A program made the position numbers and the translations under genes. A DNA stretch of 61,609 nucleotides from Rhodovarius crocodyli (GTDB lineage: Bacteria > Pseudomonadota > Alphaproteobacteria > Acetobacterales > Acetobacteraceae), in the NCBI GenBank assembly GCA_945901085.1, contig CAMDJV010000022.1:1-61609 (forward strand), read 5' to 3'. Shown here in pieces: positions 20,294 to 40,158 of this stretch. A model generated the notes under the pieces. It saw only the letters and a list, made by a program, of their open reading frames with translations, did not search any database and had not been told where the DNA came from. Numbering within the stretch: position 1 is the first letter of the stretch; each line of letters starts with the position of its first letter.

Positions 20294-22318
20294 TTATCCC
20301 CTCATGATGATGGCGCCGGAGGGTTCGACCTCGGCCGTCCAGCCCGGCGGCACCAGGGTGGTGGCGTCCAATTGCGTAATGATGGCGGGGCCGGAAATGC
20401 AAGCGCCTGCCCCCATGCCTGAACGGTCATAGATGGCGGCCCGGGCCTGGCCCTCCGGCAGCCGTATGCGCTGGTGGCCGATGGGCCGGGCAGTGCCCGG
20501 CGCCGGGCGGGCCGCGGCCGCGCCATGCAGTCGACCGGTGGCGGTGATCCGCAGGGTGACGATCTCGATGCCGATGCCGGGCAAATCGAAGCCGTAGAGC
20601 GCACGATGGGCCTCCGCGAAGGCCTCGCCCAGCCCGCTCAGGCCGGACCAGGGGATGGGCAGTTCGAAGCCCTGCTCCGCATAGCGCATCAGCACGCTGA
20701 GGGCACTATTCCGGTCGGCCGGGGGCACGGCTTCATCGGCGAACCAAGTCACGGCGTCAGCCTCCAGCGCTGCAAAGCCGGCTTCCAGCTTGGCCGCGGC
20801 GGCTGCGGCCAAGGGCATGGTCACGCTGCGCGAAAACTCGGCCCGCAGATCCGCCGCCACCAGCCCCTGGGCGCACAGCACGCCGGGCGCGCGCGGCACC
20901 AGCACGGTGCGGATGCCCAGAAGCGTGGCCAGCGCTGCGCCATGCAGCGGCCCGGCCCCGCCGAAGGGTACCAGGGCAAAATCGCGCGGATCATGCCCGC
21001 GCTCTACGGAGACCACGCGGATGGCGCCGACCATGTTGTTGTCGGCAATGGCTAGGACGCCGCGCGCCGCCGCCTCCACGGACAGGCCGAGCGGGCCGGC
21101 GATGCGTGCCAGCGCCGCCTCTGCCCGCGCCGCATCCAGCGCCATGCGCCCGCCCAGCAGGCTGGCCGGCAGATGGCCGAGGTAGAGATGCGCGTCGGTG
21201 ACGGTCGGCTCCTCGCTACCCTTCCCATAACAGGCGGGGCCGGGCGCGGCGCCCGCGCTTTTAGGGCCCACCGTCAAGGCGCCACCGGGCGAAACCCGGG
21301 CGATGGAGCCACCGCCGGCACCGATCGTCACCATGTCCAACATTGGCAGTGGCAGTGGCCAGGGGCCGACCCGACCGGATTGCGTCAGGCCTATCCGCCC
21401 CCCCGTGATCACGCAGATATCAGCTGAGGTGCCGCCGATATCCACGGTGATGAGGTTGTCGAAACCCGCCGCCGCGCCGTCCGCCCGCGCGCCTACCACG
21501 CCGGCGGCGGGGCCGGAGAGTGCGGTCTGCGCCGGCGCGCGGCGGATGGCGGCGGCACCGGCGACGCCGCCATTGGATTTCATCAGCAGCAGGGGGGCTG
21601 AGACCCCGGCCTCGGCCAGCCGCGCCTCCAGCCGCGCGATGTAGGTCGAGACGGCGGGCATCACGGCAGCGTTCAGAACGGTCGCCATCGAACGCTCATA
21701 TTCGCGCACCACCGGCAGGACCTCGTGCGAGGCGGTGATGGCCAGGCCGGGCAGAAGCCCGCGCAGGAGGGTGGCGGCGCGCGCTTCATGCGCGGCGTTG
21801 GAAAAGCTGTGCAGGAAGCAGATGGCCAAGGCCTCCGCCGCCATCGCACGAATGGCCTCGGCCACGCCCGGCAGGGCCGCTTCGTCGAGCGGTGTGATTT
21901 CCTGGCCATCGGCGCCGATACGTCCGGCGACTTCAAATACATGCTCAGGCGGCACGGGGCGGCGCGGCTTCACCCAGGCCCAGAGATTGTCTCGCCGGGG
22001 CAGGTCGGCGCGGCCGATTTCCAGCACATGGCGGAAGCCCTGGGTGGTGATCAGCGCCGTGCGGGCGGTGCGGCCTTCCAGAATCATGTTGGTCGCTACC
22101 GTGGTGCCATGCAGCACCCGGCCGACCTGGGCGGGGTCCCGCCCGGCCTCGGCCAGCGCCATCAGCACGCCGGTCAGAAACCCCTCGGAAGGGTCATGCG
22201 GGGTCGAGGGGGTCTTGGCCGTCCAGGACTCGCCGGTGGCGACATCCTGCAAGGTGACATCAGAAAACGTGCCGCCGATATCCACAGCAACGAGAAGCGG
22301 GCGCTCAGCCGAGGACAT
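20294..22318 (-). CDS. hyuA: Hydantoinase/oxoprolinase family protein, HyuA-type subunit
   Basis: This 674-residue ASKHA-fold ATPase subunit has an N-terminus VAVDIGGTFSDVTL followed by HGTTVATNMILEGR, both standard for N-methylhydantoinase A/5-oxoprolinase/acetophenone-carboxylase alpha. Later it has VDIGGTSADICVI (second phosphate-binding motif) and FGGAGPLHGAALA. With HyuB it performs ATP-dependent opening of a lactam, hydantoin or related ring, or carboxylation of a ketone. The ATG at 22318 overlaps the end of hyuB by 14 bases. It is the last gene of an operon that begins with an ABC importer, so the substrate is imported. Confidence 0.93.
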   Translation of the reverse strand: MSSAERPLLVAVDIGGTFSDVTLQDVATGESWTAKTPSTPHDPSEGFLTGVLMALAEAGRDPAQVGRVLHGTTVATNMILEGRTARTALITTQGFRHVLEIGRADLPRRDNLWAWVKPRRPVPPEHVFEVAGRIGADGQEITPLDEAALPGVAEAIRAMAAEALAICFLHSFSNAAHEARAATLLRGLLPGLAITASHEVLPVVREYERSMATVLNAAVMPAVSTYIARLEARLAEAGVSAPLLLMKSNGGVAGAAAIRRAPAQTALSGPAAGVVGARADGAAAGFDNLITVDIGGTSADICVITGGRIGLTQSGRVGPWPLPLPMLDMVTIGAGGGSIARVSPGGALTVGPKSAGAAPGPACYGKGSEEPTVTDAHLYLGHLPASLLGGRMALDAARAEAALARIAGPLGLSVEAAARGVLAIADNNMVGAIRVVSVERGHDPRDFALVPFGGAGPLHGAALATLLGIRTVLVPRAPGVLCAQGLVAADLRAEFSRSVTMPLAAAAAAKLEAGFAALEADAVTWFADEAVPPADRNSALSVLMRYAEQGFELPIPWSGLSGLGEAFAEAHRALYGFDLPGIGIEIVTLRITATGRLHGAAAARPAPGTARPIGHQRIRLPEGQARAAIYDRSGMGAGACISGPAIITQLDATTLVPPGWTAEVEPSGAIIMRG

Positions 22319-24023
22319 CGGCGTATTCCCCACGGTGGAAGGCTTTGGTGGCTGGGCGAGGGCCGTTGCGAGTGCCATCGCGCAGAACGCCGTAATCGCG
22401 CGCCGCCGCCTCGGCACTGACGAAGCCGCCGCGGATATCGGCCAGCACGGCCTCTACCGGGCGATCATGCGGGTGGCCCCAACCACCGCCGCCGCCGGTG
22501 AACAGCCGCACGATGTCGCCCCGCTTCAGCCGCGTGCCGTCCGAGAGTGAGGGCAAACGCCGCTCATCTGGCCGGCCTGGATTGACCACGGCACTGCCCA
22601 CGCCGCCGTTCATGCCGCCCGCCACGCCCCAGGGCGGGTTCAGCACTGTGTCGACCCGCACGGCGAGCGTGGCGCTCTCGGCGACGATCTCGTAGTCCCG
22701 CTCCACCCCGCAGCCCCCGCGATAGCGCCCGGGCCCGCCGGAGTCGCGGTGAAGCGCGTAACGCAGCAGCCGGATCGGGTAGGAGAGTTCCATGAACTCC
22801 ACCGGGTAGTTTTCCTGGGCGACGAAATAGACGGCGTCGGTGCCATCGGCGAAGGGCCGCGCGCCATAGCCCACCCCTACGCCATCGCTCATCAGAAAGC
22901 CCTCGCCGCGCAATGTTAGCACGACGTAGGCGGAATGGGCGGCGGGCGCTTCTCCGGCGCGGGCGGTGGCGACCAGGCCATGGAAGGCCGCCAGCAGCCG
23001 CATCATGGTGATGCCGCGCAGGCCGAGGGGCGCCGGCGCCCGCGGCGCCAGCAGCGAACCGGGGCGCAGCCGCACCTCATCCAACGCGCGCGGGCCGCCG
23101 GCATTCAGCACCTGGCCTTGCTCACCCTGGAGGAAATAGAGCCCCAGCGCCATGCCCGGCACGTCGGGGTGCATCAGCAGGTTGACCGGTCCCGCTGCCT
23201 GGTCGTCCGTTTCGGTGGTGTCGAGGATGAAGCGGTCATCCTCCGTGCGGATCAGAGCCAGACGCAGCCGGAAGGGGCCGTTCCCCTGACCGTCTGAATC
23301 GATCGCGTCGGTGAAGCGGGTAACACCCACCGGAAACGTCGCGCGCAGCTTGTCGCGCACCACGGTCTCGGTACGGGAGAGCAGCTGCGCCAGCGCATCG
23401 GCCAGCACATCGGGGCCGAAGCGCTGGGCGATTTCCTCCAGCCGCTTCTCGCCCAGGCGGACGGCGGCCATCAATGCGCGGGTGTCGCCCTGCGATTGCA
23501 TGGGGTAGCGGCCGTTGCGCCAGAAGACTTCCAGCAGCGCCTCATTCGTCTCGCCGCCGCGCATAAGCCGCACGGGGGGGATGATGATGCCCTCCTGAAA
23601 ATGATCCGTGGCATCGGGGCTGAGCGAGCCGGGCCGCAGCCCGCCAATATCGGAAAAATGCGCCCAGCCCATGACGAAGCCGATGCGCTGGCCGTCTACG
23701 AAGGCGGGGGCCAGGAACACCTGGTCGTTGGAATGAGAGACGGCACCGCGACTGCCATAGCAGTCATTGTACCAGTAGAGATCGCCGGGGAGCATGGATT
23801 CGAGCGGGAATTTCGCGGCCACCGGGCCCACGATATCGCCGAAGATCGGTAAATCGCTGCCCACCGCCATCGCACCATCCGCGTCGAACAGGGCGGTATA
23901 AAAGTCCTTCTTCTCACGGATGAACGCTGACATGGCGGTGCGTTCCAGCAACGCCTCCATCTCGGCCTGCGCGGCGCGGGCGGCGCCGCGGATGATTTCC
24001 AGCGTGACGGCGTCACAGCTCAT
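22305..24023 (-). CDS. hyuB: Hydantoinase/oxoprolinase family protein, HyuB-type subunit
   Basis: This 572-residue partner of HyuA starts with DAVTLEIIRGAARAAQAEME and carries LLERTAMSAFIREKKDF, FGDIVGPVAAKFP, WYNDCYG and SHSNDQVF, all typical of N-methylhydantoinase B/5-oxoprolinase beta. The C-terminal glycine-rich FTGGGGGWGHP is also a family mark. The ATG at 24023 overlaps the ATPase gene stop (ATGA). Gene order B then A and separate subunits are usual in proteobacteria; eukaryotic oxoprolinases fuse them. The ring substrate cannot be inferred from the sequence. Confidence 0.93.
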   Translation of the reverse strand: MSCDAVTLEIIRGAARAAQAEMEALLERTAMSAFIREKKDFYTALFDADGAMAVGSDLPIFGDIVGPVAAKFPLESMLPGDLYWYNDCYGSRGAVSHSNDQVFLAPAFVDGQRIGFVMGWAHFSDIGGLRPGSLSPDATDHFQEGIIIPPVRLMRGGETNEALLEVFWRNGRYPMQSQGDTRALMAAVRLGEKRLEEIAQRFGPDVLADALAQLLSRTETVVRDKLRATFPVGVTRFTDAIDSDGQGNGPFRLRLALIRTEDDRFILDTTETDDQAAGPVNLLMHPDVPGMALGLYFLQGEQGQVLNAGGPRALDEVRLRPGSLLAPRAPAPLGLRGITMMRLLAAFHGLVATARAGEAPAAHSAYVVLTLRGEGFLMSDGVGVGYGARPFADGTDAVYFVAQENYPVEFMELSYPIRLLRYALHRDSGGPGRYRGGCGVERDYEIVAESATLAVRVDTVLNPPWGVAGGMNGGVGSAVVNPGRPDERRLPSLSDGTRLKRGDIVRLFTGGGGGWGHPHDRPVEAVLADIRGGFVSAEAAARDYGVLRDGTRNGPRPATKAFHRGEYADVLG

Positions 24024-25003
24024 CCGGCGGCTTCCCAGTGGTGGCAGGCAACGCTGTGACCGGTCTCCACGGCCTCAGGTGCCGGGTCGGTGCGGGCGCA
24101 TTCCGCGCTGGCCAGGGCACAGCGGGGATGGAAGCGGCAGCCGTCGGGGACGCGCTTCAGCGAAGGCGGCTCGCCCGGCAGCGAGGGGCCGGCGGCGCGC
24201 CCGTCCAGATGCGGGGCGGCGGCCAGCAAGGCGCGGGTGTAGGGGTGGCGGGGATTGGAGAACAGTGCATCGGCTGGCGCTTCCTCGACGATGCGGCCGA
24301 GATACATCACGCCTACACGATCACACACCCGGCGCACCACCGTCAGGTCATGCGAGATGAACAGGTAGGTCAGCCCGAACCGCCCGCGCAGGTCATCCAG
24401 CAGCTGTAGCACCGAGGCCTGGACGGAGAGATCCAGCCCCGCCGTGGGCTCGTCCAGAACCACCAGCCGGGGGCGCAGAAGCAGAATACGCGCAAGGCCG
24501 ATGCGGCGTTGCTGACCGCCGGATAGCTCATGGGGGTAGCGATCGGCCATGGCGGGACTGAGGCCCACGGCGTCGAGCATCGCGGCGATGCGGCTCGTGC
24601 GTTCCGCCGGCGCCACGCCGTGGATGGCCATCCCTTCTGCCAGGGTTGCGCCCACCCGCCACCAGGGGTCCAGCGCCGCACCGGGGTCCTGATGGACATA
24701 CTGGATGTCGCGCCGCGCCGCGCGGGCGGCGGGCGGGGCGAGGCCGGACACCCGCGCGCCATCAAGCAGAATTTCGCCCGCGGCTTCGCGCTGCAGCCCG
24801 AGCAGGGTGCGCGCCAGGGTGGTCTTGCCGCAGCCGCTCTCCCCCACCACGCCATAGGCCTCGCCGGCCCGGATCGAGAGATTGACCCCATCCACCGCGC
24901 GCAGCGGCTGCGCCGCGCGGAACAGTCGGGCGGGCCGGCCGAGATCGGTCATGAGCCCACGCGCCGCCAGAAGCTCAGACAAGGGCAGGCTCCGGATGTG
25001 CAC
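24020..25003 (-). CDS. Dipeptide/oligopeptide-type ABC importer ATPase (DppF-like)
   Basis: This 327-residue ATPase has Walker A GESGCGKTT, signature LSGGQQRRIGLAR and Walker B LVVLDEPTAGLD. The C-terminal oligopeptide-transporter extension carries GCRFHPRCALASAECA, whose cysteines may bind an Fe-S or zinc site in this subfamily. It is the second ATPase of the importer. The ATG at 25003 lies 29 bases inside the preceding ATPase gene; a TTG at 24981 would give a tighter overlap. Its stop is fused by ATGA to hyuB, tying transport and hydrolysis in one transcript. Confidence 0.93.
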   Translation of the reverse strand: MHIRSLPLSELLAARGLMTDLGRPARLFRAAQPLRAVDGVNLSIRAGEAYGVVGESGCGKTTLARTLLGLQREAAGEILLDGARVSGLAPPAARAARRDIQYVHQDPGAALDPWWRVGATLAEGMAIHGVAPAERTSRIAAMLDAVGLSPAMADRYPHELSGGQQRRIGLARILLLRPRLVVLDEPTAGLDLSVQASVLQLLDDLRGRFGLTYLFISHDLTVVRRVCDRVGVMYLGRIVEEAPADALFSNPRHPYTRALLAAAPHLDGRAAGPSLPGEPPSLKRVPDGCRFHPRCALASAECARTDPAPEAVETGHSVACHHWEAAG

Positions 25004-25916
25004 AGGCCAGGCTGCGGCCCTCGGTGATGGCCAGCAAGGGCGGCACGGCGTCGGCGCAATGTGCTTGCGCCTGCGGGCAACGGGGATGAAAGCGGCAGCC
25101 CGAGGGCTGCGCTGTGGCCGGCGGCACGGTGCCGGGAATGCCCGCCAACTCCACCGCCCGGTCGGGGTGGCAGGCTAGCAGCAGGCGTGTGTAGGGGTGG
25201 GTGGGGGCGTCCAGAACGGCACGCGTCGGCCCGGCCTCTGCCACCCGGCCGGCGTAGAGCACGGTCACCGCATCGCAAAGGCTGGCCAGGACGCCGAAAT
25301 CATGCGTGACGAACAGCATGGACAGCCCCCGCGCCCGTGCGATTTCCCGCAGCAGGCCAAGGATTTCGCGCTGCGTCGTCACATCCAGCGCGGTTGTCGG
25401 CTCATCGGCGACGACCAGGCTGGGCTCACAGCTCAGGGCGGCGGCAATGAGCAATCGCTGGCGCTGGCCGCCCGAGAATTCATGCGGGTATTTTCGTAGC
25501 GCCGCCTCAGGGTCCGGCAATTGTACGGCGCGGAGCAGGTCCAGCAGCTTGGCACGATGGTCGGCGCGCGTGCCCGTCGCGTGGCGGCGCATGATCTCAA
25601 AAATCTGGTCGCCGGCGCGGAAGGTGGGGTTGAGCGAAAGATAGGGGTCCTGCGGCACGAAGCCGATGCGGCCGCGCGCCTGCGCCGCCTGGTCAGGCAA
25701 GATGTCGCGGCCCTCGAACATCACCCGCCCCCGCGCGGTGGCGCCGCGCGGCAATATCCCCAGCATCGCCCGCAGCAGGGTGGATTTGCCGCAGCCGCTT
25801 TCCCCCACCACGCCCATGATCTGACCGGGTGCAACCGTGATGGACACACCATCGAGGATTTGTGCGCCCCCGCGCATATCCACCCGCAGCCCCTCGATAT
25901 CGAGCAGGGCGGTCAA
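24975..25916 (-). CDS. Dipeptide/oligopeptide-type ABC importer ATPase (DppD-like)
   Basis: This 313-residue ATPase has Walker [10 protein letters not shown], signature [12 protein letters not shown], Walker [13 protein letters not shown] and the C-terminal GCRFHPRCPQAQAHC cysteine motif. Residues before TALLDIEGLRVDM belong to the upstream permease gene read in another frame. The likely start is therefore the TTG at 25916 that overlaps the permease TGA (TTGA), or a nearby weak start. It pairs with the DppF-like ATPase to drive uptake through the two permeases upstream. Confidence 0.9.
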   Translation of the reverse strand: MTALLDIEGLRVDMRGGAQILDGVSITVAPGQIMGVVGESGCGKSTLLRAMLGILPRGATARGRVMFEGRDILPDQAAQARGRIGFVPQDPYLSLNPTFRAGDQIFEIMRRHATGTRADHRAKLLDLLRAVQLPDPEAALRKYPHEFSGGQRQRLLIAAALSCEPSLVVADEPTTALDVTTQREILGLLREIARARGLSMLFVTHDFGVLASLCDAVTVLYAGRVAEAGPTRAVLDAPTHPYTRLLLACHPDRAVELAGIPGTVPPATAQPSGCRFHPRCPQAQAHCADAVPPLLAITEGRSLACAHPEPALV

Positions 25917-26755
25917 TGCCGGCTCCGCCTGAGACGTGGGTCCGCAGCATCGCGCAGACCATCGCCAAGCAGGTTGAAGCCCAGCACCAGCAACAGGATG
26001 GCAAGGCCCGGGAAGGTGGCGAACCACCACGCATCGGGCAGATGCTGCCGCGCCTCGGATACCGCCAGCCCCCAATCGGGCGTGGGCGGAGTGGCGCCAA
26101 CGCCGAGGAAACCGAGGATGGCGGCGGTCAGGATGGTGAACCCCATGCCAATGGTGGCCCGCACCAGCACCGCCGGCGCGGCATTGGGTAGAACATGCAG
26201 GAACAGGATCCGTGCGGGATGGGCGCCGATGCCCGCCAGTGCATCCACGAACAGCGCGCCGCGCAGCCGCCGCGTCTCGGCAAAGACAGTACGGGCAAAA
26301 AAGGGCCAATAGGTGAGGGCGAGGGCCACCATGGCGGTGAAGATGCCCGGCGCCAGAAGCTGCCCCAAAGCCAGCGCCAGGATCAGCTGCGGCACCGCCA
26401 GGAAGACGTCGGTGAAGCGCATCAGCCCCTCCGACAGCCAGCCATCGCGCCAGCCCGCGATCAGGCCGACAGGCACGCCGATCAGCATGGCCGCCAGCAC
26501 CACGGCCAGCGCAACCAGCAAAGCGCTGCGCGTGCCCAGGATGACGCGGGAGAAGATGTCGCGGCCCAGATTGTCGGTGCCGAACAGGAACTCGGCCGAG
26601 GGCGGTCGCAGCCGCTGCATGATGTTGCTTTCAAAGGCGTCGTCGGGAAACGGCGCCAACCATTGCGCGAAGGTCGCCACAAAGACGGCGAACACCACGA
26701 TGAGGAGCCCAAACGCTGCCACCGGATCACGCATCAGGTGCCGCAGCGCGGTCAT
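25913..26755 (-). CDS. Dipeptide/oligopeptide-type ABC importer permease (DppC-like)
   Basis: This 280-residue inner-membrane permease has an N-terminal helix (AAFGLLIVVFAVFVATFAQW), then the DppC hallmark FLFGTDNLGRDIFSRVILGTR. Further helices follow, and near the C-terminus the LPNAAPAVLVRATIGMG coupling region, then GFLGVGATPPTPDWGLAV. Its ATG overlaps the DppB-like stop (ATGA) and its stop overlaps the next ATPase start. Confidence 0.93.
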   Translation of the reverse strand: MTALRHLMRDPVAAFGLLIVVFAVFVATFAQWLAPFPDDAFESNIMQRLRPPSAEFLFGTDNLGRDIFSRVILGTRSALLVALAVVLAAMLIGVPVGLIAGWRDGWLSEGLMRFTDVFLAVPQLILALALGQLLAPGIFTAMVALALTYWPFFARTVFAETRRLRGALFVDALAGIGAHPARILFLHVLPNAAPAVLVRATIGMGFTILTAAILGFLGVGATPPTPDWGLAVSEARQHLPDAWWFATFPGLAILLLVLGFNLLGDGLRDAADPRLRRSRH

Positions 26756-27759
26756 TGCAGAGCCACCCGCGGGTCGATCAGCGCCTGCGCCACATCCACC
26801 AGCACATTGACCGCGGCATAGATCACGCCGACCACGAGTGTGACCGCCAGCAGTGCCTTGTAGTCGGCCGAGAGGATGGCCTGTACCGCATAGGTCCCCA
26901 AGCCGGGCCAGTCGAACACCGCCTCAATGGCCACGGCACCCGAGATCAGTGCGCCGAACAGCAGGCCGATCTGAGTGACGGTCACTGTGATGGCGTTGCG
27001 CAGCACATAGATGGTGGCGAGGCGGAACCGGCCGTAGCCGGCGGCACGGGCATACAGCACGTAATCCTTCTGCAACGCCTCCAGCACACCCGAGCGGGTG
27101 AAGCGGGCGATGGTGGCCAGCCCCGGCAGCGCCAGCGTCACCGCTGGCAGCACGAGGTGCCGCGCCGCATCGACGAACATGTCGCCGCGGCCGGCCAGAA
27201 GGCTGTCGATCAGCAGGAAGCCCGTGACGCGGGGCGGCAGGCCCAACGGAACATCCATTCGCCCGCGCAGGGGGAGCAGGTCCCACTCCATGGAGAATTG
27301 CAGCTGCAGCATGATGGCTAGCCAGAAGGAGGCCATGGCCAGCCCGCCCACGCTCAAAACCCGCACCAGATGGTCAATCGGCCCATTGTGGTTCAGCGCC
27401 GCCAGCAGCCCGAGCGGGATGCCCAGGCAGGTCGCCAGCAGCAACGCCACGAAGGTGAGTTCCAGAGTTGCCGGCAGGCGGCGAGCAATGTCCTCCGAGA
27501 CAGGTCGGCCGGAGAAGATGGAATTGCCCAGGTCGCCCGACAGCACCTGACGCATATGCACCCACGCCTGCTCCATGATCGGACGATCCAGGCCGTAGCG
27601 GGCACGGATATCGGCGATTTGCGCCGGGGTGGCCGCATCCCCCGCCAGCGTCGCCGCCGGGTCGCCGGGAATGACCCTGGAAAGGATGAAGGTTAGCACC
27701 ACCAGCCCGAACAGGGCCGGCAGCGCCAGGGCGATGCGGCGGGCGATGTAGGCCAGCAT
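26752..27759 (-). CDS. Dipeptide/oligopeptide-type ABC importer permease (DppB-like)
   Basis: This 335-residue permease begins MLAYIARRIALALPALFGL and carries LSRVIPGDPAATLAG and IADIRARYGLDRPI, the DppB N-terminal pattern. The EAA-like coupling loop YARAAGYGRFRLATIYVLRN follows, and the C-terminus is VLVDVAQALIDPRVAL. The ATG at 27759 overlaps the binding-protein stop (TGATG), although a GTG one codon earlier is possible. It works with the DppC-like subunit to move a small peptide-sized solute into the cytoplasm. Confidence 0.93.
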   Translation of the reverse strand: MLAYIARRIALALPALFGLVVLTFILSRVIPGDPAATLAGDAATPAQIADIRARYGLDRPIMEQAWVHMRQVLSGDLGNSIFSGRPVSEDIARRLPATLELTFVALLLATCLGIPLGLLAALNHNGPIDHLVRVLSVGGLAMASFWLAIMLQLQFSMEWDLLPLRGRMDVPLGLPPRVTGFLLIDSLLAGRGDMFVDAARHLVLPAVTLALPGLATIARFTRSGVLEALQKDYVLYARAAGYGRFRLATIYVLRNAITVTVTQIGLLFGALISGAVAIEAVFDWPGLGTYAVQAILSADYKALLAVTLVVGVIYAAVNVLVDVAQALIDPRVALQ

Positions 27760-29330: not shown

Positions 29331-29358
29331 CTTCAAGGTGTCGCCCTCGCATTGTTGG

Positions 29359-31570: not shown

Positions 31571-31577
31571 CGGTGGC

Positions 31578-32606
31578 TCAGTCCACCGCCAGATCACTCG
31601 CCAGATGGAACAGGCAATCGCCCCGCTTGGTGCGGGCGGGAATGCGCTGACACATCACCATGCCAGCCGCCTTAAAGGCGATTTCGACCGGCTTCTGCCA
31701 TGGCGTCTCAGGGGTGTGGATGCGCGCGGCCGGCTGGCCCGCCACCACCATATCGCCCAAAGCCACCAGGGGCTCGAACACCCCGCCCTCGGGCGCATAG
31801 ACGTAGTAATCCTGACCACGGACATCGAGGAAGCGGGTCGGCTCCGGCGGTTCCTGCCAATGCGTCTGCCCGATGATGCCCAGATGCACCAGCAGATTGC
31901 GCAAGCCGCGCTCGGCAATCTTCAGCCCTGCCGGATTGACCGTGCCACAGCCCCCCAACTCGGTGCCGAGTGAGATGCTGCCGCGCCTGTCCGCGCCACT
32001 GCCCAAAGTCTGATCGCCACCCTGGCCCTGGGCGCCGCCCTGGATGTAGCAGAAGGGGGCGCCAAAGGCCCGCAGCGCCGCCAATTGCTTGGCATAGAGT
32101 GCCGGATCAGCCGATTGCTTGGCCAATGCACAGGGCACGTAGTTCAGCGAAGACCCGCCCGAATGCAGGTCAATCACCAGATCAGCCAGCGGGATCAATT
32201 GGCTGTCGATGAAATGCGCGATCTGCCGCGTCACCGTGCCATCCGGGTCACCCGGGAAGATCCGGTTCATGTTGAGGTCATCAATCGGCGAAACCCGCCG
32301 CCCAGCCAGCGCCGCCGGATAATTCGCCATGGGCAGAATGATCACCCGGCCCTGGACCATGTCCGGGGTGAGCCATTGCGCCAGATTGGTCAGCGCCACT
32401 TGGCCCTCATACTCGTCGCCATGATTGCCCGAGGTGAAGAGCGCCGTCGGCCCCTCGCCATTCTTCACCACCACGATAGGGATGGGCAGGAAACCATAGG
32501 CGCTGTCATGGGTGGAATGGAACAGCCGAATAAAGCCGGTCTGCCGACCATCGCGGGCCAGATCTACTTCGGGGACCAGGCGTGAGGGGCGAGGGGTGTC
32601 TGGCAT
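31578..32606 (-). CDS. Succinylglutamate desuccinylase/aspartoacylase family deacylase
   Basis: This 342-residue zinc carboxypeptidase-fold enzyme removes an acyl group from an amino acid or similar amine. Zinc ligands are visible in SGNHGDEYEG (H62, E65) and DLHSGGSSLNY (H148). A C-terminal barrel-sandwich domain (VYAPEGGVFEPLVALGDMV) is present, as in DoeB-type N-acetyl-diaminobutyrate deacetylases and related proteins. It is the last gene of the DMFase/importer operon, seven bases after the ATPase stop, so it should act on an imported N-acylated compound or on a product of the DMFase-like enzyme. Confidence 0.9.
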   Translation of the reverse strand: MPDTPRPSRLVPEVDLARDGRQTGFIRLFHSTHDSAYGFLPIPIVVVKNGEGPTALFTSGNHGDEYEGQVALTNLAQWLTPDMVQGRVIILPMANYPAALAGRRVSPIDDLNMNRIFPGDPDGTVTRQIAHFIDSQLIPLADLVIDLHSGGSSLNYVPCALAKQSADPALYAKQLAALRAFGAPFCYIQGGAQGQGGDQTLGSGADRRGSISLGTELGGCGTVNPAGLKIAERGLRNLLVHLGIIGQTHWQEPPEPTRFLDVRGQDYYVYAPEGGVFEPLVALGDMVVAGQPAARIHTPETPWQKPVEIAFKAAGMVMCQRIPARTKRGDCLFHLASDLAVD

Positions 32607-32612
32607 GGCGGT

Positions 32613-33605
32613 TCAGCCTTTTGCGGGGTGGATCAGATGGCAGGCCACCTGGTGGCCCGGAGTGGCTGGCAGCAATTCTGGCGCCCGCTCACGACAGAGG
32701 GGCATCACATGCGGGCAGCGGGTGTGAAAGCGGCAGCCCGAGGGTGGGTTGATCGCGCTCGGAATATCACCGGCAATGCGCACTCTGCGCCCGCGCGAGC
32801 GATTGGCCGGGTGAGAGGCCGGAACAGCGCCGATCAACGCCTGGGTGTAGGGGTGCAGCGGCGCGTCATAAATCGCCCGCTTCTCGGCCACCTCCACCAC
32901 CCGGCCCAGATACATCACCGCCACCCGGTCCGAGATATGGCGCACCACCGAAAGGTCATGGGCGATGAAGAGATAGGTCAGCCCCATCTCGCGCTGCAGA
33001 TCCTGCAACAGGTTCACGATTTGCGCCTGCACCGAGACATCAAGCGCCGAGACCGCCTCATCACAAACGATCAGTCGCGGCTTGAGGATCAGCGCGCGGG
33101 CGATGCCGATGCGCTGGCGCTGCCCGCCGGAAAACTCATGCGGAAAGCGCTCCATGGCGCGGGTCGGCAGGCCCACGCGTTCGAGCATCGCCCGCACCTC
33201 GCGCCGCGTTGCTTCGCCCGCTTTGGCGCCGTGGATGATCAGCGGCTCGGCCACAATGTCTTCCACCGTCATGCGCGGGTTCAGCGCGCCATAAGGGTCC
33301 TGGAAGACGATCTGCATGCCGCGCCGCACCGGGCGCATGGCAGAGCGGGGCAGGGTGGTGATGTCCTGGCCATCGAAGCGCAGCCGCCCGGCGCTGGGCT
33401 CGATCAGCCGCAGCAGCAGCCGGCCCAGGGTGGATTTGCCGCAGCCGGATTCACCCACCAGCCCCAGCGTCTCGCCGGGCATAATGCTGAGCGAGACCCC
33501 ATCAACCGCGCGCAGCCGCGCCCCGGGCCTGAGACCCAAAAATCCACCACCGCCCACCTCGAAATATTTCTCCAGGCCCAGCGCCTCGACCAAAGGCTGG
33601 GTCAT
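32613..33605 (-). CDS. Oligopeptide-type ABC importer ATPase (OppF/DppF-like), second cluster
   Basis: This 330-residue ATPase has Walker [13 protein letters not shown]-loop [12 protein letters not shown], signature [15 protein letters not shown] and Walker [13 protein letters not shown] (Ala replaces the usual Pro after DE). The C-terminal Opp extension has [15 protein letters not shown]. The ATG at 33605 overlaps the preceding ATPase TGA (ATGA); a longer upstream frame lies inside that gene and is not used. It is a distant paralogue of the ATPase at 24020. Confidence 0.93.
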
Positions 33606-34576
33606 GAGGCGAGTTCCCGGGCGCGAAAGCAGGCGGCGCTGTGCTCGGCCTGTAGGCTTTCCAGCAGCGGCACGGCCTCGGTGCAGGCGGGCTGGGCCAT
33701 GGCGCAGCGCGGGGCAAAGCGGCAGCCGGGCGGGCGGCGCGAAGGCTCGGGCAGGGTGCCCGGAATGGCCACCAGCCTTGGGCGGTCCTCGGTCAGCGAG
33801 GGCACGCATTCCAGCAACCCGCGCGTATAGGGATGCAGCGGCTGGTCGAAGATGCGCGCCACCGGCGCCTGCTCGATCACCCGGCCGGCATACATCACCA
33901 GCACCCGGTCCGCGGTCTCGGCGATCACGCCCATATTGTGGGTGATGATGATGATACCCATGCCGAATTCGTCGCGCAGATCCATCAGCAGATCGAGGAT
34001 TTGGGCCTGGATGGTGACGTCGAGCGCAGTGGTAGGCTCATCGGCGATCAGCAGCCGCGGCTGGCAGGCCAGCGCCATGGCAATCATCACCCGCTGTCGC
34101 TGGCCGCCCGACATCTGGTGCGGGTAGTCATCCAAGCGCCGCGCGGCGGCCGGAATGCCCACCTTGTCCAGCATGGCGATGGCACGCGCGCGCAATGCGG
34201 CGGGGGCCAGCCGCTCATGCGCGCGGATCGTCTCCATGATCTGCTCGCCGATCGAGAAAACCGGGTTCAGCGAGGTCATCGGCTCCTGAAAAATCATGCC
34301 AATGCCAGGGCCGCGAATGGGCTGCATCTGCCGCTCCGAAAGCCCGGTCAGCACCCGGCCATCGAAGCGCACCAACCCCGCCGCAATCCGCGCCGGCGGC
34401 GAGGGCAGCAGCCCCATGATGCTGAGTGCGGTGACCGATTTGCCACTGCCGGATTCACCCACAATGCCCAAAATCTCACCCGGCTTGAGGGAGAAGGACA
34501 CATCCTCAATGGCATTCACCTCGCCGCGCTCGGTCATGAAGGCGGTGGTGAGGTTTTCGACGTCGAGCAGGCTCAC
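33602..34576 (-). CDS. Oligopeptide-type ABC importer ATPase (OppD/DppD-like), second cluster
   Basis: This 324-residue ATPase has Walker [10 protein letters not shown]-loop [14 protein letters not shown], signature [15 protein letters not shown], Walker [13 protein letters not shown] and the C-terminal [15 protein letters not shown] motif. It starts with a GTG at 34576 overlapping the permease TGA (GTGA), and its own stop overlaps the OppF-like ATG. These overlaps indicate one coupled translation unit. Confidence 0.93.
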
Positions 34577-35448
34577 TGCTGAATCCGCAGCCGGGGGTCG
34601 AGCACATCGCGCAAGCCATCGCCCAGCAGGTTCAGGCCCATGACGGTGATCATCAGCGCCACACCGGGAATGGTGATGATCCAGGGTGCTTCACGCATGA
34701 AATCCCGTCCCTCGGACATGATGTTGCCCCAGGTGGGTGTGGGCGGCACCGCGCCCACGCCGAGGAAGGAGAGTGTTGCCTCCGACAGCACGGCATAGGC
34801 GAAGAGGAAGGAGAGCTGCACGATCATCGGCGCCACCGCATTGGGCAGGATATGGTGGCGCAAAATCCGCCAATGCCCGGCACCCGCAGCCACCGCGGCC
34901 TGCACATACTCCATCTCCCGCAGCACAATAACCGAGGAGCGCACAATGCGCGCGGTGCGCGGAATATAGACGATGCTCAGCGCCAGAATGACATTGATGG
35001 TCGAAGGCCCCAGCACCGAGGTGACGGCAATGGCGAGCAGGATGGCGGGGAAGGCCATCAGCGCGTCATTCACCCGCATGAGAACATTGTCGAGCCGGCG
35101 GAAATACCCCGCCGCCGCGCCGATTAGCGTGCCGAAGACCGCATTGAGCACCACTACCGAGGCGCCAATGAGCATGGAGAGCTGCGCCCCCCACACCACG
35201 CGCGACCATAGGCTGCGGCCAAAACTATCTGTGCCGAACACCCAAGCCCCGCCCGGCCCCAGGAACTTGTTGCGCATCGACAGCCGGTTCGGATCCACAT
35301 CGGTGATGAAGGGCGCCGCCGCCGCGACAATTGCCACGATGCCAAACAGGACAAACCCGCTGACAAAAAGCCGGTGCCGGAACAGCCGCCGCAAAGTGGC
35401 CCGCGCGGGGTGAATGCGGCGTTCGGGGATATCCTCAGCGTCAGCCAT
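34573..35448 (-). CDS. Oligopeptide-type ABC importer permease (OppC-like), second cluster
   Basis: This 291-residue permease has a hydrophilic N-terminus ([17 protein letters not shown]), then [20 protein letters not shown], the DppC/OppC hallmark. [20 protein letters not shown] is the coupling loop, and [20 protein letters not shown] and [14 protein letters not shown] close the protein. The ATG at 35448 overlaps the OppB-like stop by eight bases. Five or six membrane helices are evident. Confidence 0.93.
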
Positions 35449-36406
35449 AGCGCACCCGCGGGTCGAGCACGGCGTAGAGCACATCAACCAGAATATTCAC
35501 CGCCACCAGAAAAGCCGTCACCAATAGCAGCCCCCCTTGCACCATCGGGTAGTCCCGGTTCAGCACCGCCTGGGTCAAAAGCAGCCCCATGCCGGGCAGG
35601 GAGAACAGCGCCTCCGTCACCACCGCGCCTGAGAGCAGCAGGGAGACGATAATGCCCACCACGGTCACGATCGGGATCAGCGCATTGGCCAAAGCGTGTT
35701 TGAGAATCACCACCCGCCCCGGCAGCCCCTTGGCCCGCGCGGTGCGGATATAATCCTGCCGCAGCACCTCCAGCATGGAGGAGCGGGTGATGCGCGCAAG
35801 CAACCCCGCCTGCAGCAACGCCAGCGAGAAGGCCGGCATGGTGGTGCTCTGCACCCAGCCCCAAGGGTCCTGGCTGAAGGGGATATAGCCGCCGCTCGGC
35901 AGCCAGCCGAGCTTCACGGCGAAGAGGATGATCATGAGCAAACCGAGAAAGAAATTGGGCACCGAAATGCCGATCATAGCGAACATCATGGCCGCCTGAT
36001 CCATCCAACTATTCTGCCGGAGTGCGGCGATGATGCCGCATCCAATACCGATCATCAGCGTCATCAGCAGCGCATACATCGAAAGCCCAATGGTCACCGG
36101 CAGCCGCTCCATGGTCGCCGGCAGCACGCCCTTGCCCAACAGCAGAGAGCGACCGAAATCACCCTGCAAAATGCCCTTGTAGTATTGTGCTAGCTGGAAG
36201 ATCAGCGGTTCATCCAGCCCCAGATCATGGCGCAACTGCGCAATCTGCGCCGGTGAGGCAGACAGCCCGGCAATCGCCGCCGCCGGATCACCCGGGATCA
36301 GCCGCATCAGCCCGAAGCTGATCAGGCTGACGATCAGCAGAACCGGTATGGCGCCGAACAGGCTGCGTATGGCGAGCCTGATCAACTCAGCGCTGCACCC
36401 AAACAT
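35441..36406 (-). CDS. Oligopeptide-type ABC importer permease (OppB-like), second cluster
   Basis: This permease of about 315-321 residues carries GAIPVLLIVSLISFGLMRLI, PGDPAAAIAGLSASPAQIAQ and LRHDLGLDEPL, then the coupling loop YIRTARAKGLPGRVVILKHA and a C-terminal [14 protein letters not shown]. The start is uncertain. The ATG at 36406 overlaps the binding-protein gene by 20 bases without a ribosome site. A TTG at 36385, just past that gene's stop, would give LIRLAIRSLFG, the normal family N-terminus. Confidence 0.9.
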   Translation of the reverse strand: MFGCSAELIRLAIRSLFGAIPVLLIVSLISFGLMRLIPGDPAAAIAGLSASPAQIAQLRHDLGLDEPLIFQLAQYYKGILQGDFGRSLLLGKGVLPATMERLPVTIGLSMYALLMTLMIGIGCGIIAALRQNSWMDQAAMMFAMIGISVPNFFLGLLMIILFAVKLGWLPSGGYIPFSQDPWGWVQSTTMPAFSLALLQAGLLARITRSSMLEVLRQDYIRTARAKGLPGRVVILKHALANALIPIVTVVGIIVSLLLSGAVVTEALFSLPGMGLLLTQAVLNRDYPMVQGGLLLVTAFLVAVNILVDVLYAVLDPRVRYG

Positions 36407-37952
36407 TGGAGAAGCGCGGAATTCGGAACGGCACAAAGCCCTGCACATTGGCCCGCACAGCTTGCACCTTGGTCAATGCGCCGAAGGGATAGGCATAGGC
36501 GCGCTCCAGAACCAGGGCCTGCATGCGGGCGAAGGCGGCGTTGCGCGCCGCCTGGTCGGGCAGATTGTTCATATCGTTCCAGGCGGCCATCACCTCCGGG
36601 TCATCGCGGTCATCGCGCGGGCGATAGGCGGCATTGGGCGAGACCAAGAATTGCATGGTGGCCAGGGCGCCCAGCGCCGGCTGCGTGCCCCAGCCACTAT
36701 GGAAGAAATGCCACTCACTGCTGTTGAGCTGCTGCGACATCTGAATCGAGGTCGGCCAATCCACCACCCGCAGGCTGGCATTGATGCCCACCGCCTTGAG
36801 CTGCTGCTCCATCACCAGCGCCGCATTATACATCGGCGGATAGTCACGGTTGGTCAGGATAATGATCGGCTCATTGCGATAGCCGGATTCGCGCAGCAAG
36901 GCCCGGGCGCGGGTGGGGTTGTTGATATTGTAGGTCTCCCGCCCCGCCTCCGAATAGGTCGCCTGGTTGGGGTATTGGAAGCCGATATTCAGCCGGAAAT
37001 TGCCATCCGTTGCAGCATCCATAATGTCCTCGGCGCCGAGTGCTGCCTGCACCGCGCGGCGGAAGACCAGGTTGTTGGTGGGCGCCACCGAGACATTGGG
37101 CAGCGCGATCTGAATCCACCAATTCTGCAAGGGCAGCACGGTGATGGCACGGTTGCGGCGCAGCCCTTCCAGCGAGCGGGTGGGCACATCCTCCACCGCC
37201 TGCAGCGCGCCCGTCTCCAGCCCCGCCACGCGGGCCGAGGCCTCGGTGACGATGCGGAAGGTCACGGTATCGACGCAGGCGACGCGATAGCCACCAAAGC
37301 CGGTGCGCTGCTCAAAGGCGGTGTTCGGTTTATAGCCATCATACCGGCCGAGCCGGGCATGGCTGCCGGGGGTGAATTCCAGCAGGCGGAAGGGGCCGGT
37401 GCCGATGCTGCGCAGCTGCTGGCGCTCATCATTCTCCAATTCCGAGGGCACGATCACGATCGGCACCGAGAAAGACGACAGCGCCTCGATGAAGGTGGGC
37501 TGCGCCCGCTTCATGCGGATGACGAAGGTCATCGGATCTGGGGTGTCCCAGCCCGCCACATTGTCCAGCGTGCTGCGCTGCAGGCCGATGCGATTGTAGC
37601 GGTTGAAGGAGGCCGCGACATCGGCCGAGGTCAGTGCCTTGCCATTGTGAAAGGTCACGCCAGAACGCAGCCGGAAGGTGTAGGTCATCCCATCGGCCGC
37701 CGCATTCATGCTTTCGGCGAGTTCGAGAATGGGGTTGTTGTTCTCGTCCCTGGTCATCAGGGTCTCGAAGATATTCATCGCGATATTGCGGGTGGAAATC
37801 GTGCTGGAGGTCATCTGGTCCAGGGAATTCACATTCGCTTCCTGGCCGAACACGATGTCGCCGCCGCGCACCGGGCAGGTGAAGCGCTCCGCATGCAGCG
37901 ACCCTGCCATGGCCAGGGAGACGAGGCAGGTGGTGAGGGCCAAGCGTTTCAT
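36387..37952 (-). CDS. Family 5 extracellular solute-binding protein, second cluster
   Basis: This 521-residue periplasmic protein has signal peptide MKRLALTTCLVSLAMAGSLHA. The family 5 hallmark is TYTFRLRSGVTFHNGKALTS, followed by DVAASFNRY. AAAGGGAATCCGGAT precedes the ATG. It is only distantly similar to the binding protein at 27759 and lacks its N-terminal wording, so the two importers likely take different solutes. It is the second gene of the operon after the DMFase-like enzyme, 52 bases downstream. Confidence 0.92.
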   Translation of the reverse strand: MKRLALTTCLVSLAMAGSLHAERFTCPVRGGDIVFGQEANVNSLDQMTSSTISTRNIAMNIFETLMTRDENNNPILELAESMNAAADGMTYTFRLRSGVTFHNGKALTSADVAASFNRYNRIGLQRSTLDNVAGWDTPDPMTFVIRMKRAQPTFIEALSSFSVPIVIVPSELENDERQQLRSIGTGPFRLLEFTPGSHARLGRYDGYKPNTAFEQRTGFGGYRVACVDTVTFRIVTEASARVAGLETGALQAVEDVPTRSLEGLRRNRAITVLPLQNWWIQIALPNVSVAPTNNLVFRRAVQAALGAEDIMDAATDGNFRLNIGFQYPNQATYSEAGRETYNINNPTRARALLRESGYRNEPIIILTNRDYPPMYNAALVMEQQLKAVGINASLRVVDWPTSIQMSQQLNSSEWHFFHSGWGTQPALGALATMQFLVSPNAAYRPRDDRDDPEVMAAWNDMNNLPDQAARNAAFARMQALVLERAYAYPFGALTKVQAVRANVQGFVPFRIPRFSNVWVQR

Positions 37953-38004: not shown

Positions 38005-40158
38005 TCAACCGGCGGCGAATCGCCGCAATACATTTTCCATGATGCGGCTGACCGGCCCCTGGAAGCCGCCGCCCTGCCATAGGCTGCCGCACCAGGTGAT
38101 GGAGCCCACGGCAAACACCTCGCCCCCGCCGGGGGTGGTGAAATGCACGATCTCGGCCCGCTTCAAGGCATCGGCCTTCTCGCCGCTGATGGTGGTGACG
38201 TGGGAGAGCAACTCCTCCGGCACGGTGACGAAGGAGGCCGGTGGGTCCTCCGAGCGGGCCAGAATGGCCGCATTGGCCGGGGTGCCGAGGGTGAAATCCG
38301 CCCGGTCCAGTTCGAAGCCGGCAGCGCCTCCGCCGGATAGGCCATAATCGCCGAAGGTCTCGCCCTCTACGCCCTCGAACACCCAAGAATACCCTGCTGC
38401 GGCAGGCAGCTTGCGATAATGCGTGCCCTCGAACATCCCCTGGCCGGAAAACCCAACCCCGGCCAGTTTCTGCGGCGGCCTGCCATTGCGGCGCCACAGC
38501 CCGCCATATTGGCCATCCAATTGCTGGTAGTATTCGCCCGGATTGGCGGCCCAGGCGCGGATGCCGCCCTCGGCGCGGCGCACCTCCAGCATCCCCGGCA
38601 TGGTTGCGATGCGCCAGTAAAACCCATTGCCGCCAAGATACATCATCCGGCCCTGGCCCTGGGTGTATTCGGCCAGCGCATCGAGGGTTTCGGGGGTGTG
38701 GTATTCCGGGTGGCTGCCGGTCAGCACAACCTTATAAGGGGCGAGCAGCGCCGCACCCTCCTCATGCAAATCCTCATCGGTCACGACATCAAAATCGATG
38801 CCCTTCGCCTCCATCCAGGCCAGCAGATGGGTGTCGGCCGGATAATGCCGCAGGCCCGAGCCCAGCGGGTCGTTGAAGGTGAGAAAACCCGGCCGCATGG
38901 TCAGAATGGGCCGCAGCCGCGAGGAGAGCGCGATGCCAGAATTATCAAGATGGCGGTTGTAGGTGGACGAGCCATAGACCGGGAAATCGCTGGGATTATG
39001 CGGATAAGCCCCCCAAGCCGCCACCCGCGCCTTATAGGCGGCATCGTTGTTGCCCCGCGCATGATTGGCATAGGCCTGATAGGTGAAGGTGGAGGCGAGG
39101 AAGACCACCGGCGCACCAGCCACACCCCGCGGCGGCAGGATATAAAGCGGCAACCAATCCTCACCAGCCGCGCAGGTGAGATGCAGCGCATAGGCGCCAC
39201 TGCGCAGCCCCTCGGGCACAATAAATTCGAAATCGGTCTCCCAACCGCAATCACCCAGGTCATCAGCGTGGAAATGAATGGCGCCGTAATCGGCCGGCGC
39301 ATGCCGCCAGCACATTTCAGCGCCGCTCCAGGCCGCGCCGGCCATTGCACGGGTGGGCGCATTGACCAGCACGCCATGGCAGGCCTGGGGGCCGATATCG
39401 GCAATATCCTGGGTGCTGATGTCGCGCGAAAAATCCCATGCGGCCAGAACAGCCGGGGGCGTGCCCGCCCATGCGGCGCAAAAACCTGCATGCAGCGCCG
39501 GCGCCTCTATTCGCCCGGTGAAATGGACACGGGGGCAGCCGACATCACGCGCGGCGATCAGCAATTGCCCGGCCCCATCGGGCAACACGAGGCCGGGATG
39601 GCTGGCCTGGGCCAGGCTGGCCTCCCCGCCCGCGAGGCTTTGCTGGCCCAGCAGGATTTGGCCCGTCGCCGGGTCAGCGCTCAGCCACAGGCGCATCCAT
39701 TGCCGCAGCGGCCAGGCATGGCTGGTGGCCAGAAGCAATGCTGTCTCGCCCATCCGAATTTCAGCCCAAGCACCATCAGGCCCCACACCCAAGGTAACGG
39801 TAGAACCCGGCTGTTCCTCGCTCAGCACCGCAGCGGCATCGCCCGGCATCGCCTCCAGCATCACCAGCGCCGACCAGCAGCACGGCCCCGCCGGGCGACG
39901 CGGCGGATTGGCCACAATCGCATAGGAGCCCGGCCGGACAGGCTGGTGCCGCCCCGCAAAGCCATGCTCGAAAACGCCCGATAAATCTTCAAACCGCAGG
40001 CCCGGCCCCTCGGGGTTGGGGTCGCCCGAGATCACCCGCACCAGCCTCGCCCGCACCGGCCCGCCACCCGGCACGCTGACTTTGGCGGCGAAACCCTCCC
40101 CGGCCCGGTGAGAGAAGCGATCAAGATAGCCGGTGATCGGCAATTCGGCATGCGGCAT
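38005..40158 (-). CDS. N,N-dimethylformamidase large (beta) subunit family protein
   Basis: This 717-residue protein has an N-terminal concanavalin/jelly-roll-like part (ITGYLDRFSHRAGEGFAAKV). The C-terminal half is DMFase-type: WLPLYILPPRG, VVFLASTFTYQAYANHARGN, RPGFLTFNDPLGSGLRHYPA, VVTDEDLHEEGAALL, VVLTGSHPEYHTPETLDALA and MMYLGGNGFYWRI. This domain resembles the non-haem-iron amidohydrolase fold known for DMFase, with Tyr/Glu/Glu iron ligands. No small (alpha) subunit gene is adjacent, whereas classical DMFase needs one. GGAG precedes the ATG at 40158. It heads the importer-deacylase operon and lies divergent to the class II aldolase. Confidence 0.88.
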   Translation of the reverse strand: MPHAELPITGYLDRFSHRAGEGFAAKVSVPGGGPVRARLVRVISGDPNPEGPGLRFEDLSGVFEHGFAGRHQPVRPGSYAIVANPPRRPAGPCCWSALVMLEAMPGDAAAVLSEEQPGSTVTLGVGPDGAWAEIRMGETALLLATSHAWPLRQWMRLWLSADPATGQILLGQQSLAGGEASLAQASHPGLVLPDGAGQLLIAARDVGCPRVHFTGRIEAPALHAGFCAAWAGTPPAVLAAWDFSRDISTQDIADIGPQACHGVLVNAPTRAMAGAAWSGAEMCWRHAPADYGAIHFHADDLGDCGWETDFEFIVPEGLRSGAYALHLTCAAGEDWLPLYILPPRGVAGAPVVFLASTFTYQAYANHARGNNDAAYKARVAAWGAYPHNPSDFPVYGSSTYNRHLDNSGIALSSRLRPILTMRPGFLTFNDPLGSGLRHYPADTHLLAWMEAKGIDFDVVTDEDLHEEGAALLAPYKVVLTGSHPEYHTPETLDALAEYTQGQGRMMYLGGNGFYWRIATMPGMLEVRRAEGGIRAWAANPGEYYQQLDGQYGGLWRRNGRPPQKLAGVGFSGQGMFEGTHYRKLPAAAGYSWVFEGVEGETFGDYGLSGGGAAGFELDRADFTLGTPANAAILARSEDPPASFVTVPEELLSHVTTISGEKADALKRAEIVHFTTPGGGEVFAVGSITWCGSLWQGGGFQGPVSRIMENVLRRFAAG

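Follow-up and report, generated by a model that had tools for sequence, protein, structure and literature searches.

The plan of a peptide-type ABC importer encoded together with enzymes that cleave its cargo is already known. In the ethylenediaminetetraacetate (EDTA) operon of Chelativorans (eppABCD, emoA, emoB), as described in the excerpt of PMC7312458, an importer of the NikA/DppA/OppA type accompanies a C-N-cleaving monooxygenase of the LLM/NtaA family that depends on reduced flavin mononucleotide (FMNH2). The iaaA-gsiABCD genes of Escherichia coli (L223 among the loci we compared) follow the same plan with a different enzyme family, an isoaspartyl dipeptidase gene standing ahead of a peptide-type (glutathione) importer. 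On Ti plasmids, importer genes share an opine catabolic region with HyuAB, and the excerpts of PMC6733357 and PMC8554961 present HyuAB as the proposed opener of lactam opines. CapAB of Pseudomonas jessenii, in the excerpt of PMC8453981, is a two-subunit ATP-dependent lactam hydrolase with ATP motifs, a metal tetrad and the gene order B-A. Here we analyze two operons of this general plan in a stretch of 61,609 nucleotides from Rhodovarius crocodyli (GCA_945901085.1, contig CAMDJV010000022.1, our contig C22; hereafter the window), part of a draft genome of 3.85 Mb in 91 contigs that is 96.8% complete. One operon joins an importer to the hydrolase subunits HyuB and HyuA beside a monooxygenase gene, LLM, and the other joins an importer to two putative amide-cleaving enzymes, DMF and DEAC. 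In the open-licence literature we found no description of either operon, nor of the combination with HyuBA and LLM, and this combination of importer, HyuBA and LLM is a variant of the known plan.

Our reading, which we hold to be probable, is that the two operons are separate modules for scavenging nitrogen and carbon, each of a known kind in which a peptide-type ABC importer would be co-expressed with enzymes that cleave its cargo. All 14 operon genes lie on the minus strand, from the stop codon of HyuA at 20294 to the ATG of DMF at 40158, and the genes, families and coordinates listed by an earlier note on this DNA were recovered in 14 of 14 cases. Operon 1 has the order S1-B1-C1-D1-F1-HyuB-HyuA. 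It opens with a family 5 solute-binding protein (S1, 27759..29330; SBP_bac_5, 239 bits), followed by two importer permeases (B1, 26752..27762, with BPD_transp_1 and BPD_transp_1_N; C1, 25913..26755, with BPD_transp_1 and OppC_N) and two importer ATPases with ABC_tran and oligo_HPY (D1, 24975..25916, with a TTG start at 25916; F1, 24020..25003). It closes with the predicted metal-binding subunit HyuB (22305..24023; PF02538, 413 bits) and ATP-binding subunit HyuA (20294..22318; PF01968 and PF05378) of an ATP-dependent lactam/hydantoin hydrolase. We place the start of HyuA at the ATG at 22318, and a longer start at 22417 is possible. Divergent from S1, on the plus strand, is LLM (29561..30850), a flavin mononucleotide-dependent monooxygenase of the NtaA/DmoA family (TIGR03860, 525 bits against a cut-off of 280).

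Operon 2 has the order DMF-S2-B2-C2-D2-F2-DEAC. DMF (38005..40158; PF20254, 304 bits) is a predicted iron-tyrosinate amidase of the N,N-dimethylformamidase (DMFase) family. It is followed by a second family 5 solute-binding protein (S2, 36387..37952; SBP_bac_5, 213 bits), permeases B2 (35441..36406; BPD_transp_1 and BPD_transp_1_N) and C2 (34573..35448; BPD_transp_1 and OppC_N), ATPases D2 (33602..34576) and F2 (32613..33605), both with ABC_tran and oligo_HPY, and last by DEAC (31578..32606; PF24827), an aspartoacylase/DoeB-like zinc deacylase. Divergent from DMF, on the plus strand, is ALD2 (40272..41033; PF00596, 137 bits), of the class II aldolase/adducin family. Both importers are of the Dpp/Opp type, with an SBP_bac_5 protein, permeases of the OppB and OppC types and two ATPases with an oligo_HPY tail. 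Identity between the two operons is 27% for S, 35% for B, 39% for C, 44% for D and 50% for F, so the importers are not the product of a recent duplication. The earlier note had most junctions overlapping or lying within a few bases, and 11 of the 12 do overlap or are at most 22 bases apart. S1/B1, B1/C1, C1/D1, F1/HyuB, C2/D2 and D2/F2 overlap by 4 bases, HyuB/HyuA by 14 and B2/C2 by 8; S2/B2 has a 20-base overlap or a 1-base gap depending on the start codon, D1/F1 a 29-base overlap or a 22-base gap, and F2/DEAC a gap of 6 bases. The exception is DMF/S2, with a gap of 52 bases, which is the junction that joins the DMFase-like gene to the importer.

The HyuA and HyuB proteins carry the features of HyuAB and CapAB. 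HyuA has ATP motifs as in CapA (DIGGT twice and GAAPGP), and D40, H97, D100 and H122 of HyuB correspond to the Asp-His-Asp-His metal ligands of CapB and are invariant in an alignment of 18 rows. However, HyuA scores 476 bits on the CapA model and HyuB 202 bits on the CapB model, where the cut-off is 1000 bits, and caprolactamase proper was rejected for this reason. The P. jessenii system differs in this from the window proteins, and the text of PMC8453981 does not contain the word transporter. HyuA matches two solved structures nearly equally, the N-methylhydantoinase 7hk5 (428 bits) and 6yra, which is named 5-oxoprolinase there (414 bits), so that a lactam and a hydantoin substrate are indistinguishable by sequence. 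The Ti-plasmid HyuAB proteins are not close relatives, since the 15 plasmid records matching the window HyuB at 1e-100 include no Agrobacterium. A classical hyuABC hydantoin operon was also rejected, as operon 1 has no carbamoylase (HyuC) gene, though no HyuC query was run. From its encoded proteins, operon 1 is best read as an importer with a monooxygenase and an ATP-dependent opener of lactams or hydantoins. The importer would take up a small cyclic amide, the candidates being lactams, hydantoins and N-carboxyalkyl amino acids that form lactams. HyuA would then use ATP to activate the ring amide, and HyuB would hydrolyze the activated amide at its metal site, while LLM may oxidatively cut a further C-N (or C-S) bond, either before or after ring opening.

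The strongest support for this coupling comes from the gene order in other genomes. Searching 146 other genomes with HyuB, S1, DEAC and DMF, we found the order S1-B1-C1-D1-F1-HyuB-HyuA kept in 7 of them (L017, L066-L071). A scan of named genomes used an alignment of 18 HyuB proteins and picked loci on HyuB similarity, ignoring their neighbours; the loci are the best 80 of 210 relatives, and 66 of them have at least 6.5 kb upstream. HyuA comes after HyuB in 78 of the 80, and a peptide-type importer lies upstream on the same strand in 56 of the 66, being of the S1 type in 29 and of another type in 27. The ATPase gene of the S1-type importer is within 250 bases of HyuB in all 29 loci. Importers of the other type share 31-48% identity with the window in their permeases and ATPases; they lie equally close in 18 of 27 loci and are separated by 0.6-2.0 kb in the remaining 9. 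In a tree of 81 HyuB rows, the three importer states require 7 changes, compared to a mean of 30.2 for shuffled labels, although near-copies make such clustering expected and the shuffles ignore relatedness. The S1-type state requires 2 changes, and 2 are forced by well-supported branches. All that the tree shows is that the importer type beside HyuBA has switched at least twice. The link between import and ring opening is best supported by the finding that orthologous hydrolases stand beside unlike importers. The earlier note had made its reading depend on the conservation of the gene orders in relatives; they are conserved, and its proposal that a small amide or ring amide is imported and then undergoes C-N hydrolysis in the cytoplasm is still the natural reading.

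LLM goes with HyuBA and an importer in many genomes and is a probable partner of operon 1. Counting proteins with at least 40% identity to the window LLM or to the LLM of L096 (the two are 43% identical), we found it in 8 of 29 S1-type loci, 12 of 27 loci with another importer and 1 of the 10 remaining loci. The 20 cases among the 56 importer-bearing loci show four placements: divergent from S1 (L141, L170, L189, L197), ahead of S1 on the same strand (L143, L155, L164, L167), downstream of HyuA (L172-L175, L195, L199, L200, with an M20 gene intervening in L173 and L174) and as a pair ahead of the importer (L201, L202, L204, L209, L215). Where LLM adjoins S1, in 8 of the 29 S1-type loci, it is 69-78% identical to the window protein. 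The genome of the window itself has 6 TIGR03860 copies over the cut-off in 3.85 Mb, which gives about 0.03 expected per 20 kb, a base rate taken from a single genome and at a threshold different from that of the locus count. On the HyuB tree the presence of LLM takes 8 changes to explain (52 rows labelled), and shared ancestry inflates the count of LLM loci. The combination of operon 1 with the monooxygenase was found in Roseomonadaceae/Acetobacteraceae and in Reyranella; Rhizobiales keep the importer and HyuBA, and no monooxygenase was seen in the stretch. The earlier note had left LLM unlinked to the operons, which these loci contradict. Its range of substrates leaves out the oxidation that the link of LLM to HyuBA and importer would bring.

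The binding proteins give some indication of what the importers do not carry. We take D408 of DppA and D419 of OppA to be the Asp that holds the peptide amine, and the role of R355 of DppA is likewise our assumption. In an alignment that is distant at this point, the column of this Asp is a gap in S1, in S2, in 31 of 31 S1 orthologues and in 11 of 11 S2 orthologues; GsiB, which also lacks the DppA/OppA residue, has a Ser there and NikA a Pro. The column of R355, where the alignment is also distant, holds Gln in S1 and Asn in S2. The missing Asp argues against ordinary dipeptides as cargo, without naming the real cargo, and S1 and S2 appear unlike the ordinary peptide binders that the earlier note had kept as an alternative. 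The predicted structures of both proteins have a low mean predicted local distance difference test score (57.2 for S1 and 51.3 for S2).

For operon 2 the relatives of DMF redirect the proposed chemistry. Its best match in the PDB is the N-acetyl-(R)-beta-phenylalanine acylase 8huy (681 bits), with 364 of 710 residues identical (51%) and the same residues at the iron-ligand positions, compared to 384 bits for the DMFase 6lvb. DMFase proper was rejected because the closest solved relative is an acylase, and the DMFase activity assumed in the earlier note gives way to that of an N-acyl-beta-amino acid acylase, to which DMF is far closer. The features of the wider family are present, namely the PF20254 domain and Y363, Y400 and E485, which align with the DMFase iron ligands Y399, Y440 and E521 given in the excerpt of PMC7686228 and are Y, Y and E in 51 of 51 covering tblastn alignments. 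Judging from these similarities, N-acyl (beta-)amino acids are likelier substrates of DMF than alkyl formamides. The space flanking DMF, 52 bases to S2 and 113 to ALD2, has no adjoining small-subunit gene, which for DMFase we take to be placed beside the gene of the large subunit. DEAC matches a single NCBIfam model, TIGR02994, that of the N-acetyl-L-2,4-diaminobutyrate deacetylase DoeB, with 306.5 bits and thus below the cut-off of 402.7. Its best match in the PDB is 3cdx (291 bits), with DoeB itself (6twm) at 256 bits, and it carries what we take to be the zinc motifs of the family. The importer of operon 2 would take up an N-acylated amino acid, probably a derivative of a beta-amino acid, from which DMF, as an iron-tyrosinate acylase, and DEAC, as a zinc deacylase, would cut one amide bond each. 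ALD2 is a possible downstream enzyme of operon 2, as the released acid might be handled by the class II aldolase, or in relatives by a 2-hydroxyacid dehydrogenase.

The arrangement of operon 2 is also conserved, with more variation around DMF. In 16 loci with a DMF of at least 54% identity (L017-L032), S2 is alongside in 10; two loci at contig ends (L039, L059) and a plasmid locus with no S2 orthologue (L101) were left out of this count. DMF is co-directional with the importer in 2 of the 10 (L017, L018), as in the window, and divergent from it in 8 (L019, L020, L022-L025, L027, L032). The translational wiring of importer to enzymes proposed in the earlier note fits most of the other junctions, which overlap or are close, and does not hold for DMF given this divergence and the 52-base gap. 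DEAC ends the importer operon in 8 of the 10 loci; of the exceptions, L024 begins at a contig end inside the importer genes and L025 has no DEAC found at the locus, and each of these two genomes has a DEAC gene on another contig. Orthologues of DMF (at least 61% identity, two of them partial) and DEAC (at least 60%) occur in 14 and 12 of the 146 genomes and coincide in 10 (p 7e-11); this and the other co-occurrence p values are from Fisher tests over the 146 genomes, uncorrected for relatedness.

The neighbours of DMF in these loci hint at what may follow the cleavage. A class II aldolase gene adjoins DMF in L017, L018, L022, L032, L059 and L102 (where DMF has 49% identity), and a hydroxyacid dehydrogenase gene of the Ldh_2 family comes after DMF in L019, L020, L023, L024, L027 and L028. 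Class III aminotransferase genes adjoin DMF in L031 and L102 and lie one gene away in L101. The L101 aminotransferase has 42 PDB matches at 1e-60, to general class III and omega-transaminases, and none of the 42 is named beta-phenylalanine aminotransferase, which weakens a beta-phenylalanine pathway. It has been tempting to see in DMF the still unidentified pantothenase, as class II aldolase, 2-hydroxyacid dehydrogenase and omega-aminotransferase neighbours would fit pantoate and beta-alanine as products, although we give this very little credence. Pseudomonas pantothenase uses an acyl-enzyme mechanism, and this would weigh against an iron-tyrosinate amidase in that role. The excerpt of PMC10393543 calls the protein identity of pantothenase unknown.

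Whether the pairing of importers and hydrolases could have arisen by chance, and whether the two operons form one system, can be judged from the genome background and from co-occurrence. That ordinary peptide or nickel importers merely adjoin unrelated hydrolase genes might be supposed from the 40 SBP_bac_5 matches in the 3.85 Mb genome, many without recognized permease or ATPase genes alongside. With so many, two importers within 20 kb are unsurprising and make weak evidence. However, the gene order is conserved, different importers stand beside orthologous HyuBA and the peptide-amine Asp is lost, so we regard mere adjacency as very improbable; the pairing of importer and C-N hydrolases exceeds chance. 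Ten neighbour genes hand-picked around other peptide-type importers in this genome, with the HyuA-like gene of contig C47 left out, include no member of a known C-N hydrolase family; they encode an aminotransferase, a DUF1028 protein, a photolyase, an O-antigen ligase, a LacI-type regulator, two CoA-transferases, a sugar-type binding protein, a 2-hydroxyacid dehydrogenase and a phosphodiesterase. C47 (L118) has a third operon of the same plan at 2923-12103, with a HyuA-like gene followed by S-B-C-D-F; this gene has about 1281 codons, a length that would allow a fused HyuA-HyuB, judged from length alone. The genome has 8 HyuA loci, with a peptide-type importer in two of them, the window and C47. 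Tripartite-type binding-protein genes adjoin HyuA or HyuB in four others (L137-L140), and in L136 a PotA-type ATPase gene is two genes away from HyuB. As for one system or two, a single pathway in which DMF/DEAC and HyuBA act in sequence on one imported molecule would explain why orthologues of HyuB (at least 66% identity) and DMF, each in 14 of the 146 genomes, coincide in 7 (p 4e-5, or 0.001 within 89 genomes of the same family). It would also fit the two operons being neighbours both here and in Humitalea rosea (L017, L145), the only side-by-side cases among the fetched loci. In H. rosea the operons are divergent, with the aldolase gene between them; in the window operon 1 follows operon 2. 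The S1-type importer (at least 69% identity) and operon 2 genes (DMF or DEAC), found in 7 and 16 of the 146 genomes, coincide in just 2, which is no more than chance (p 0.17). On this count we rejected a single two-operon system, and with it the one modular system of the earlier note. Most of these genomes with one operon lack the other, and each operon has its own importer. Rhodovarius lipocyclicus, for instance, carries operon 1, and the searches revealed no orthologues of operon 2 there. Between the operons stands a C-terminal fragment of a CcrM-like DNA methylase (30847-31485, minus strand; Pfam positions 157-219 of 221), overlapped at its end by the first copy of a 225-base direct repeat (30847-31071 and 46910-47134, 87% identical). 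About 16 kb separate the copies, containing operon 2, the aldolase gene and a PuuE-like allantoinase gene with its own ABC genes. Of 9 genomes in the genus, 4 (this one included) carry this family of dispersed repeats, which in G003 is mostly at contig ends; a similar methylase fragment lies at C47:2460-2675, immediately after the importer genes in the third HyuA operon. We read the adjacency of the operons as a mosaic, and for this reason two modules are likelier than one system, while a shared pathway for one substrate seems to us quite improbable.

Other readings concern what operon 1 degrades. It could be an aminopolycarboxylate or opine system, in which a lactam-form N-carboxyalkyl amino acid is opened by HyuBA and loses its arm to LLM. 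The excerpted accounts of the EDTA operon (PMC7312458), which shares with the window an NtaA-family monooxygenase beside a peptide-type importer, and of lactam opine opening on Ti plasmids (PMC6733357) lend this some weight, and both EmoA and nitrilotriacetate (NTA) monooxygenase are among the PDB relatives of LLM. LLM is, however, equally near to DszA (330 bits), NTA monooxygenase (329) and YtnJ (328), with EmoA farther away (239), and a single substrate deduced from its similarity was rejected for this reason. No gene like that of the flavin reductase EmoB or the iminodiacetate oxidase IdaA was found among the scanned neighbours, where an ATP-dependent ring-amide hydrolase stands instead. 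The peptidases encoded in relatives are not accounted for either. We think this version unlikely. A hydantoin-utilization operon, in which HyuAB opens 5-substituted hydantoins, would agree with the membership in the HyuAB family, with the PuuE-like allantoinase gene nearby in the window and with L096, where M20 hydrolases occur together with a protein of the aspartate/glutamate/hydantoin racemase family (the aspartate/glutamate racemase family protein is found in L096, L098 and L099). The best models of the L096 M20 proteins are, however, glutamate-carboxypeptidase-like and dipeptidase-like, and no carbamoylase model is in their match lists at 1e-12. In the window neither these two M20 proteins nor the racemase has a homologue at 1e-8, though no search with a HyuC query was made, and we are doubtful of this version too. 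Operon 1 and LLM might also form a three-part pathway, in which a natural cyclic N-substituted amide is imported, opened by HyuBA and then N-stripped by LLM; we offer this as a tentative suggestion, and as tentatively name the lactam of an opine-like or aminopolycarboxylate metallophore-like compound as an example of the cargo.

Several observations weigh against the two modules as we have described them. By the criterion used, 10 of the 66 HyuB loci have no upstream importer, although three of these ten (L211, L218, L220) have genes for a peptide-type importer at another place in the stretch. Where the importer is of the other type, its binding protein was recognized in 12 of 27 loci (26-31% identity) and not by our queries in 15. 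S1-like proteins occur with no HyuBA orthologue in the fetched stretch in L080, L082 and L083; the stretch of L084 stops at the importer, and L081 and L095 carry a HyuA of 43-44% identity. LLM is absent from 21 of 29 S1-type and 15 of 27 other loci (36 of 56), no flavin reductase gene was found beside it among the neighbours scanned, and the single-genome base rate given above limits how far its presence can be weighed. The same is true of the Fisher tests, which take no account of relatedness. Of the 16 loci L017-L032, 6 have DMF and lack S2, among them L028, a short contig. The proposed pathway also leaves unaccounted for the M20 and M28 peptidases of related HyuBA loci. An M28 peptidase family gene is near HyuBA in 21 of 27 loci with another importer, 2 of 29 S1-type loci and 3 of the 10 others, and it is divergent from the importer, often with M20 genes, in L096, L100, L172-L175, L177, L181, L182 and others. 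M20 hydrolases are near HyuBA in 10 of 27, 3 of 29 and 5 of 10 loci, respectively. A quinone-reductase-like protein is a further neighbour of HyuBA in relatives. None of the M20, M28, racemase, quinone-reductase, Ldh_2 or aminotransferase proteins of the relatives has a homologue in the window at 1e-8.

Peptide-type importers and HyuAB occur in many copies in this genome (40 SBP_bac_5 matches and 8 HyuA loci), and they are mostly annotated as a generic transporter or as 'hydantoinase/oxoprolinase'. A conserved set of importer, monooxygenase and ring-amide hydrolase gives a handle on the real cargo of these proteins. Additionally, DMF shows that the label 'N,N-dimethylformamidase' can mislead for the acylase clade. 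Should the substrates turn out to be natural lactams, opines or metallophores, the operons would reveal a route for their breakdown in bacteria that live in fresh water or with plants.

Scanning 19700-32000 for promoters and terminators yielded nothing that exceeded shuffled sequences, and no tandem repeats were found in 29000-32000. On the plus strand at 41845-46645 the PuuE-like allantoinase gene (390 bits, cut-off 425) is followed by ABC transporter genes, making a third importer that adjoins a C-N ring hydrolase in the window. Elsewhere in the genome, five binding-protein genes stand in succession at C1:82203-89881. A further NtaA-family monooxygenase, in an 814-codon frame, lies a few kb from a peptide-type importer with a DUF1028 gene in L110 (6556-15568).

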